Assembly (NCBI GenBank): GCA_003165795.1
Contig: PMWW01000107.1
Location: 2,888 to 56,309, forward strand
DNA: 53,422 bases
Source of the DNA: Acidobacteriaceae bacterium
Lineage (GTDB): Bacteria > Acidobacteriota > Terriglobia > Terriglobales > Acidobacteriaceae
Direction of reading: 5' to 3'
Below, piece after piece: positions 8,668 through 48,922 of this stretch. The first letter of the stretch is position 1, and each line of letters opens with the position of its first letter. Below the pieces are notes generated by a model, which saw only the letters and a program-made list of their open reading frames with translations, made no database searches and was not told the DNA's origin. The translations under genes were made by a program, and so were the position numbers.

Positions 8668-8706
8668 ACGTTTCGGCGGGTGCTTCTCGTAGTTGTCTGG
8701 CAGGTC

Positions 8707-8821
8707 GCTGAAAAACTCGTAACAGTATCATCCCGAGGTCACGCCGGATTTGCGCGACCGAGGGATCTGCTTTACCTTTAACGCGCACAAAAAGCAGATC
8801 CCTCGCTGCGCTCGTGATGAC
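8707..8821. repeat. Intergenic palindromic element with a 15-bp perfect inverted repeat
   Basis: CGAGGGATCTGCTTT (8759-8773) and its exact reverse complement (8791-8805) flank a 17-nt spacer. The left end carries GCTGAAAAACTC (8707-8718), the same terminal motif as the elements at 25458 and 48714. The right end (CTCGTGATGACA) resembles the element ends at 10693-10792, 21310-21366 and 24929-25020. It ends next to the treZ stop codon and may double as its terminator. Confidence 0.65.
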
Positions 8822-25076: not shown

Positions 25077-25460
25077 ATGAAACGTGTGATCGGCATGGGT
25101 GGGATCTTTTTCAAGGCGAAAGATCCGAAGGCGATTTATGAGTGGTACCGTGAGCATCTCGGGATCGAGAGCTCGCCTGATGCGGGCGCAATGTGGCGCG
25201 CTGCCGACAATCCTGAGATTCCTGTCTTCAACGTGTGGTCTATCTTTCCGCAGGAAACGAAATATTTTGACCCCAGCCAGTCTTCGTTCATGATCAACTT
25301 CCGGGTCGACGATCTCGACGGACTGCTGAAGGCGCTGCGCGAGGAAGGCGTGCAGGTGGACGACAAAGTCGAGCGCTGCGACTATGGAAACTTCGGCTGG
25401 ATCATGGATCCGGAGGGCAACCGGGTGGAGTTGTGGGAGCTGCCGAAAAGCGGAGCCTAG
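25077..25460 (+). CDS. VOC-family (glyoxalase/dioxygenase fold) protein
   Basis: 127 aa with paired beta-alpha-beta-beta-beta units (GMGGIFFKAKDPKAIYEWYREHLGI ... INFRVDDLDGLLKALREEGVQ). The C-terminal DPEGNRVELWEL is the typical metal-binding strand; the expected N-terminal His ligand is replaced (GGIFF), so the activity is unclear. The ATG has a strong AAGGAGG site. No partner genes are nearby. Confidence 0.8.
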   Translation: MKRVIGMGGIFFKAKDPKAIYEWYREHLGIESSPDAGAMWRAADNPEIPVFNVWSIFPQETKYFDPSQSSFMINFRVDDLDGLLKALREEGVQVDDKVERCDYGNFGWIMDPEGNRVELWELPKSGA

Positions 25461-25598
25461 CAGGTTGCTGCAAGAGTCATTCGACATGTTTTGAAGGGGC
25501 GCACCTTCAGGTGCGCCGTCCTAGGCCCTCTATTGTTGCCATTCCGAGCGGGCTTCAGCCCGCGAGGAATCTGCTTTCCCGACTTTTTCAGCAGACCG
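25458..25598. repeat. MITE-like palindromic element, copy A
   Basis: It begins TAGCAGGTTGCTG (overlapping the VOC stop codon) and ends with TTTTTCAGCAGACC, an imperfect terminal inverted repeat. Inside are two hairpins: GGCGCACC-TTCA-GGTGCGCC (25498-25517) and GCGGGC-TTCA-GCCCGC (25548-25563). The same layout recurs at 48714-48858 with different stem sequences. It encodes no protein. Confidence 0.8.
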
Positions 25599-25691
25599 CC
25601 AGGACCAGCGCAGCAAGAAAGTAGTCGGGAAGCGAATCGAGTCAAGGCCGGGCCATCTGGCGAATAGCGACTATGCCCAGGAGCAATACCC

Positions 25692-26042
25692 ATGAGCATA
25701 CCCGCTTCGGCGGAAGCGGCCACGGCCGCAACGATTAACCTCCCGTCTGGTTCGGCAGCCCCGATCGCCGCCAGAGAACGCATCGCGTCGCTCGACGTGC
25801 TGCGCGGAGTCGTCCTACTCGGCATTCTGCCGATGAACATCCAGGCCTTCTCCATGATCAGCGCGGCTTACGTGAACCCAACTGCGTACGGCGATTTTCA
25901 TGGCGCGCGAATCTGCGCTGTCCCCTACGTCACCCCAAGAAGCCAAGAGAGGCGCTCGTCGGCGACCCCATTACTAAACTCAGAACCATTTTCCACTTCC
26001 TACCCGGCCCTCCGGATGCGGGTGCGTCCCGGGTTAGACTGA
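25692..26042 (+). pseudogene. Truncated DUF418-type membrane protein gene
   Basis: The first ~70 residues match the DUF418 N-terminus (RIASLDVLRGVVLLGILPMNIQAFSM, AAYVNPTAYGDFHGA), the first TM segment of a family of ~400-aa multi-spanning proteins. After residue ~76 the frame reads unrelated, arginine- and proline-rich sequence and stops at 116 aa; the rest of the gene is absent. It has a ribosome site (AGGAGC) and lies ~95 bp after the MITE-like element. It is probably a deletion remnant; a short expressed peptide cannot be excluded. Confidence 0.7.
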
Positions 26043-48688: not shown

Positions 48689-48713
48689 TCAGACCCCGTT
48701 CCATTTACCGACT

Positions 48714-48858
48714 TAGCAGGCTGCTGAAAAAGTCTGATTCGGTGAGTTTTGAAGGGGCGTAGCTTTAGCTACGCCGTAGCAACTCCCTTGTTCTTGTCAT
48801 CCCGAACCGACTCTAGTCGGTGGGGATACGCTTTTCCGAGTTTTTCAGCAACTTGCTA
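48714..48858. repeat. MITE-like palindromic element, copy B
   Basis: 145 bp bounded by an 18-bp imperfect inverted repeat TAGCARGYTGCTGAAAAA (two mismatches). Internal hairpins: GGCGTAGC-TTTA-GCTACGCC (48756-48775) and ACCGAC-TCTA-GTCGGT (48806-48821). It shares order and linker sequence with copy A (25458-25598), including GTTTTGAAGGGGCG before hairpin 1 and the TTTTTCAGCA end. It lies inside the exopolysaccharide cluster between the GT4 and dehydrogenase genes. Confidence 0.82.
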
Positions 48859-48922
48859 GCCTATTGCTCCATCAGCCGAACCACTCCCTGTCGAAAATGT
48901 GACTCGCTGTCTACCCAAGAGA

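Follow-up and report, generated by a model that had tools for sequence, protein, structure and literature searches.

REP doublets carried inside a family of MITEs in the Acidobacteriaceae, with hairpin stems that differ in pairs

Background

The IS1182 family includes IS1272. IS1272 is reported in passages of PMC5678879 to target inverted repeats, without target duplications, and IS elements inserted in REPs are described in parts of PMC1525189 and PMC8450116. With regard to the REPs themselves, PMC2817692 has passages on RAYT genes flanked by inverted REPs, and in PMC3116915 compensatory changes in the hairpins of REPINs are called common. The substrate of RAYTs and their IS200/IS605 relatives is given as folded single-stranded hairpins in passages of PMC6006769 and PMC2817692. 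The literature considered here has little on the RAYT repeats of Acidobacteria, with single passages in PMC3733652 and PMC6006769, and in the open-licence literature on REPs, MITEs and Acidobacteria we found no description of a MITE that carries REPs.

Here we discuss two copies of such an element, A and B, in a stretch of 53,422 nucleotides from an Acidobacteriaceae genome. The whole of this stretch is referred to as the window, and the genome that it comes from as the home genome (G000).

The two copies and their surroundings

The positions of the two copies and their parts are given in Table 1. The initial annotation had reported internal hairpins in A and B that differ in sequence while remaining complementary, and both hairpins are indeed present at the places it gave, with the stem differences between A and B, at 12 of 42 positions, making up 6 compensated pairs. 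Its start for copy A, 25458, has been corrected to 25461 (CAGG), the preceding TAG being part of the flanking 4-mer CTAG. Nor do the stems change unusually fast, as the two copies differ at 18 of 55 positions in the linkers, 5 of 31 in the terminal repeats and 3 of 4 in the loops. The stems of A and B are changing no faster than their surroundings, but they are changing in pairs.

Table 1. Positions in the window of copies A and B, their hairpins and their flanking 4-mers.
Feature	Position	Strand	Remarks
Copy A, left flanking 4-mer CTAG	25457..25460	.	target duplication; its TAG doubles as stop codon for the glyoxalase-like gene
Copy A, MITE, 138 bp	25461..25598	+	ends CAGGTTGCTGCAAGAGTC / CGGTCTGCTGAAAAAGTC (the latter on the minus strand)
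REP-doublet cassette in copy A	25490..25578	+	R2 match G000:C5:28377-28465, shifted by 2887
Hairpin 1 of A	25498..25517	+	stem GGCGCACCT/AGGTGCGCC, loop TC closed by T-A
Hairpin 2 of A	25541..25570	+	ATTCC-GA-GCGGGCT/AGCCCGC-GA-GGAAT; symmetric GA/GA mismatch between stems ATTCC and GCGGGCT
Copy A, right flanking 4-mer CCAG	25599..25602	.	one mismatch to CTAG
Copy B, left flanking 4-mer TTAG	48713..48716	.	
Copy B, MITE, 139 bp	48717..48855	+	
REP-doublet cassette in copy B	48748..48835	+	R2 match G000:C5:51635-51722, shifted by 2887
Hairpin 1 of B	48756..48775	+	stem GGCGTAGCT/AGCTACGCC
Hairpin 2 of B	48799..48827	+	stems ATCCC and ACCGACT
Inner stem of B hairpin 2, ACCGACT/AGTCGGT	48806-48821		
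Copy B, right flanking 4-mer CTAG	48856..48859	.	one mismatch to TTAG

The symmetric GA/GA mismatch between the outer and inner stems of hairpin 2, seen in A, is frequent among hairpin-2 copies. Tandem GA pairs are known for their stability.

Copy A lies close behind a glyoxalase-like gene, whose stop codon its left 4-mer overlaps. It had been said to abut a truncated gene, and there is a frame of 73 aa to its right, at 25692-25910, which may resemble the start of a DUF418 protein; the frame itself has no Pfam match. The peptidase and glyoxalase-like gene pair is found without the element in 6 of 8 other genomes of the genus. In 6 relatives neither the 73-aa frame nor coaD was found in the 1.5 kb on the right side of the glyoxalase-like gene, and copy A is therefore at or near a break in synteny. 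As the right flank is missing there, the relatives do not provide a clean empty site for copy A, and uninterrupted REP target sites were used instead.

Extent of the family

A DNA search with copy A gave 43 matches in the home genome, and a covariance model (R1) built from 18 copies gave at least 142 matches there at E <= 0.01, a lower bound with 150 of 1963 first-look candidates scored. Collection with a covariance model thus places A and B in a dispersed family. R1 matches are present in 19 of 41 genomes, these being 9 of 9 in the genus and 10 of 16 in the rest of the family (mostly with few matches each), and there were none in 14 genomes of another family of the order or in 2 more distant genomes. 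A search of named genomes for the exact hairpin pattern, in which records near the home genome may have been left out, gave 4 stretches, all of them in acidobacterial MAGs.

Several MITE copies are at contig ends (C55, C80, C124, C158 and others of the home genome). The assembly is therefore probably interrupted by the repeat, which makes the copy numbers low estimates. There is also a subfamily, here called X, with the same terminal repeats and another cassette.

The REP doublet and RAYT genes

Within the MITE there is a cassette of about 89 bp with two hairpins and T-YY-A loops, which as DNA may be two-residue loops. The same cassette is found without the terminal repeats, and sharp-ended, in 55 of 142 cases. 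On the left of these 55 end-less copies conservation goes from background to 0.91 at TTTGAAGG, and on the right it is back to background past CTGCTTTT, with a recognisable hairpin 2 in 38 of the 55. A second model, R2, was built from 27 cassettes (25 of the 32 listed free ones, one A-type and one B-type). With scoring limited to 109 candidates in any one genome it matched in 22 of 40 genomes, with 9 of 9 in the genus and 13 of 16 in the family, and in none of 15 genomes outside the family.

The home genome has 13 matches to Y1 transposases. Five of the 13 were classified by RAYT and IS200 models, and of these L166, L167, L169 and L173 are above the cut-off for REP-associated tyrosine transposases and L161 is above that for IS200. 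At L173 a complete cassette is ahead of the gene and an inverted hairpin 1 is at the 3' end of the gene, and R2 matches face each other across the L166, L169 and L173 genes, those at L166 and L169 being weak at 20-30 bits. Homologs of the L173 protein define a set of 30 loci, and in these 32 of the 41 R2 matches are no more than 120 bp from an end of the RAYT gene, a zone that makes up 15% of the DNA. The loci are related to one another, and a binomial value for this concentration would therefore be inflated. All but one of the near-RAYT matches (31/32) have the inverted arrangement. Twelve of the 30 loci have an R2 match at both ends, 5 at one end and 13 at neither.

The hairpins at these loci include types seen in the MITEs. 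The hairpin-1 stem of copy A, GGCGCACCT, is present in two relatives, at L317 (both ends) and L296 (one end), while L295 has a compensated hairpin-1 variant, GGCGCGCCT, at both ends and L298 has hairpin 1 GGCGGGGCT at both ends. The cassette of subfamily X is the hairpin type that flanks RAYT L167. The occurrence of free cassettes, and of cassettes that flank RAYT genes in inverted orientation, shows the inside of A and B to be a REP doublet packaged in a MITE.

However, there is evidence against a one-to-one link of cassette and RAYT, as two genomes have cassettes with no L173 homolog at E <= 1e-10 (G005 with 53 matches and G008 with 32), and two others (G016 and G018) have an L173 homolog with no R2 match. 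There is no GTAG or GTGG foot 5' of hairpin 1, where we find TTTGAAGG instead, and only the X type has GGTAGA. REP hairpins were also seen inside the 3' ends of two RAYT genes (L173:1282-1806 and L167:1495-2115), so that the repeat is translated as the tail of the protein.

The MITE shell

The terminal repeat CAGGNTGCTGAAAAAGTC with up to 2 mismatches gives 115 matches, compared with 7 for the reversed pattern. The status of the ends was scored for 142 cassettes, those with a recognisable hairpin 1 among 155 distinct hits, an end being counted as present with up to 5 of 18 mismatches. Both ends were present in 41, the left only in 28, the right only in 18 and neither in 55. Identical 4-mers flank 18 of the 41 two-ended copies, in comparison with 10 of 986 control positions, and are CTAG in 7 cases, TTAG in 4, TTCA and CTAA in 2 each, and TTTA, TAAA and TTAA in 1 each, so that CTAG, TTAG or CTAA accounts for 13 of the 18 exact duplications. 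The other 23 do not have an identical 4-mer, and include A and B with one mismatch each. The description of the element as MITE-like is confirmed by these duplications, together with the uninterrupted counterparts of insertion sites found elsewhere and discussed below. A lone match resembling the terminal repeat, CAGGTCGCTGAAAAACTC, is at 8701-8718 (+) in the window, with no partner found.

An IS with the same terminal repeats would be the natural parent. At the transposase loci examined in the home genome no parent IS with the MITE ends was found; the matches there to PF05598 (one) and PF01609 (three) do not have the MITE terminal repeats. The L242 protein also has four matches in the home genome. 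These are IS1182-like fragments, close to or at the ends of contigs and with no convincing MITE-like ends, and it is possible that the parent IS has been broken up by assembly. Two loci in genomes of the genus were considered as parents and rejected. L226 passes the IS1182 model and has ends, TTGCTGTTGAAAAAGTC, that are related but inexact, and L242, with CTAG and CAGGCCGTGGTGCAAG, is of a related type and also inexact. An element with similar ends was found only in another genus of the family (L252:485-1960, in genome G048). It is 1476 bp long with a CTAG duplication, and its ends, CAGACTGTTGAAAAAC / CAGACTGTTGAACAAT, are similar but not identical to those of the MITE. The transposase of 469 aa is nearest to IS1182, at 165 bits against a model cut-off of 270. 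Judging from these sequences L252 is likely to be the kind of parent, and not the actual parent.

Other carriers of such hairpins were seen. A second MITE type (L052:1220-1338, L058:1176-1295 and 1669-1787, L041:2589-2708) has ends like GGAAACTCTGATTAAGTC, YTAR-like flanks and a hairpin doublet of the same kind, with stem GGACGGCC in several. L239, in genome G002, has a transposase matching an IS5 model, ends GGAACCCCTGAACAAG and TTAG at the left, and on sequence is a possible parent type for the second MITE. A repeat that has TTTGAAAGGGCACGGC hairpins, and whose copies share a right part with GAGGACGTTCCGG as its end (L045:517-592, L037:222-297, L052:1099-1174, L135:59-149), is perhaps a third carrier element.

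Pairing between stem types and within copies

In a structure-blind alignment of 27 cassettes there are both-sided changes in 13 of 21 pairs and 58 of 567 cells. Shuffles, which do not keep relatedness, gave 18.7 (sd 3.0) and slid partners, which do keep it, gave at most 6, and covariation is thus well above expectation. Single pairs may be found in both orientations in large numbers, as in pair 7 of hairpin 1 (C-G 72 and G-C 50 in 148 modules) and pair 3 of hairpin 2 (C-G 46 and G-C 39 in 99 modules). The stem is perfect in 70 of the 148 hairpin-1 and 48 of the 99 hairpin-2 modules, and the types of perfect stem are joined by single-pair steps in 11 of 11 cases for hairpin 2 and 7 of 8 for hairpin 1.

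It could be proposed that A and B merely have their ends in common and that their stems are unrelated, coming from different families of repeats, which the initial annotation had named as the finding that would undo its reading. Subfamily X and the GGACGGCCT cassette, each of which resembles a REP type of its own, under ends that are the same or different, give some grounds for this. However, A and B are identical at 37 of the 55 linker positions that can be aligned and at 26 of 31 terminal positions, and there is an intermediate stem type, GGCGCAGCT, with 12 perfect copies. For A and B we give the proposal hardly any credence.

The changes within copies are of another kind. We compared 15 A-type copies, selected by hand for completeness and subfamily out of 27 listed. 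Private substitutions in these are at 19 of 630 stem positions, 30 of 868 linker positions and 17 of 538 positions in the terminal repeats, with stems hit as often as linkers, and all 19 of the changed stem pairs are one-sided, with 15 broken and 4 G-T. If shared changes are included the figures are 19/630, 72/868 and 41/538, and stems are thus the conserved part among the older, shared changes, a contrast that is partly circular since the A-type copies were in part picked by their likeness to A. The residual changes in all modules that could be assigned a type, which leaves out 41 of the 148 for hairpin 1 and 22 of the 99 for hairpin 2, are 88 one-sided, 4 two-sided and paired, and 2 two-sided and broken. 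Pairing is kept in the spreading lineages and freely lost in landed copies. The view that pairing itself is selected is thus upheld for the copy-making lineages, in which differences between types are paired, but not for landed copies of the A subfamily, where 0 of 19 changes are compensated.

This contrast bears on the possibility that the hairpins act as RNA, be it as a small RNA, a processing site or a terminator, with the host maintaining the pairing. Both A and B fold as RNA better than 200 of 200 shuffles on either strand, and RNA roles are known for other MITEs and REPs according to passages in PMC3733652. Against this, private changes in landed copies break pairs freely, covariation is common to the repeats that flank RAYT genes, Rfam gave 0 matches at gathering score across the window, and a promoter and terminator scan of positions 25300-25800 gave nothing, with no terminator-like site. 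We regard an RNA role maintained by the host as quite improbable.

The stems might also be kept perfect by a mutational process, such as template switching or conversion against the pool of REPs, with units replaced and no selection for pairing. In 9 stems the two arms are exact matches to different common types, and a recombinant-like stem with a left arm of A type and a right arm of B type was seen at L148:201-309. Hairpin-1 and hairpin-2 types combine freely (n = 60), with GGCGCACCT found with 7 of 7 hairpin-2 types, GGCGCAGCT with 5 and GGCGTAGCT with 3, and in subfamily X there is another cassette under the same ends. All of this would fit replacement. However, such a process does not account well for the complete lack of two-sided changes in the 15 A-type copies, for the single-pair steps that connect the stem types, or for A and B stems that have diverged no more than the linkers, and as a full explanation we consider it unlikely. 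The suggestion that stems are replaced as units is therefore not needed for most differences, for which the single-pair networks suffice, but it does fit the 9 two-type stems and the cassette swap in X.

A and B are composite elements, a MITE shell with a REP doublet inside, and we think it likely that the recognition of folded hairpins by RAYTs drives the matched changes in their stems. The shell is a MITE with terminal repeats of about 18 bp, CAGGYTGCTGAAAAASTC, and its target duplications are of 4 bp and YTAR-like. An IS1182-like DDE transposase presumably moves it in trans, a role that we infer from the sequence of L252. The cargo is a REPIN/BIME-like cassette such as is found beside RAYT genes in this bacterial family, and it also occurs free. 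A REP hairpin would have to fold for propagation, with RAYT-type enzymes acting on the folded single strand as is established for other REP systems, and lineages that keep the pairing would go on copying while their stems drift by compensated single-pair steps. For a landed copy there would be no demand for pairing, and decay would be one-sided. That RAYT recognition is the selective agent we infer by analogy with the described systems.

The inner hairpins should be dispensable to a DDE transposase, so pairing in the MITE lineages is only partly explained in this way. Either the cassettes are refreshed from the REP pool, as the 9 two-type stems and the free combination of hairpins in 60 cassettes suggest, or the hairpins matter to the MITE too.

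Insertion sites

For six chosen copies (L034, L031, L061, L035, L062 and L038) the flanks when joined form hairpins or near-hairpins, and each of the joined sites has matches across the junction to uninterrupted repeats among the loci compared. The match is strong for L034 (92.6% over 68 bp to L045 and 87.8% over 90 bp to L047), fair for L062 (with the RAYT locus L169, 81.7% over 71 bp), and short or weak for the rest, as in L031 (about 31-34 bp at 85-88%), L035 (62 bp at 82%) and L038 (64 bp at 77%). The duplication is the loop in L034 (TTCA), L031 (TTTA), L061 (TTCA), L035 (TAAA) and L062 (TGAA). These cases indicate that some of the MITEs have inserted into other REP hairpins, at the loop, and that such loops can be used as targets. 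The hairpin loop as the general target of the MITE was rejected, as only a minority of two-ended copies, 5 of 40, have complementary flanks at 6 or more of 8 pairs, in comparison with 2.9% of mismatched pairings.

It may be that the two transposition systems feed each other, with the IS1182-type MITE carrying REP doublets, landing in REP loops and so planting new sites. The REP loop would become the duplication of the MITE, each insertion would add landing sites, and pairing would serve both RAYT recognition and targeting by the MITE. We hold this reading tentatively and find it rather doubtful, although if true it would explain covariation within an element that can be moved without its inner structure.

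Comparison with known systems

The family serves as a clean natural test for the conditions under which selection acts on DNA pairing, with paired change between lineages and one-sided decay within a lineage, and the comparison of lineages with copies can be applied to any genome that is rich in copies of REPs or MITEs. A further indication from it is that a MITE is able to carry the repeats of another transposase system.

REPs, RAYTs and covariation in REPINs are known; here the covariation is seen in an acidobacterial type of REP without the GTAG foot, and the REP is packaged in a MITE. The cassette resembles REPIN/BIME elements and their RAYTs in being a short dispersed hairpin doublet, in its association with RAYT genes in inverted orientation and in its compensatory changes. 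It differs in that hairpin 1 follows TTTGAAGG and has no GTAG/GTGG foot, in that the two hairpins of the doublet are not inverted copies of one another, and in that many copies are inside a MITE.

In its length of about 140 bp, terminal inverted repeats, target duplications and lack of coding capacity the shell is like the bacterial MITEs ERIC, NEMIS and RUP, as these are treated in passages of PMC3733652, but here the cargo is a repeat that also spreads by itself and that belongs to a transposase system of unrelated type (tyrosine, HUH). The IS1182 family is similar with regard to the CTAG duplication and MITE-like ends of L252 and, in the relevant part of PMC5678879, the inverted-repeat targets of IS1272. 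However, L252 is below the model cut-off, and the elements here have target duplications, unlike IS1272 as described in that part of the paper. Finally, the IS elements found in REPs (sections of PMC1525189 and PMC8450116) share with these MITEs the use of REP hairpins as insertion targets, whereas in our case it is a MITE itself carrying REPs that is found in REP loops.
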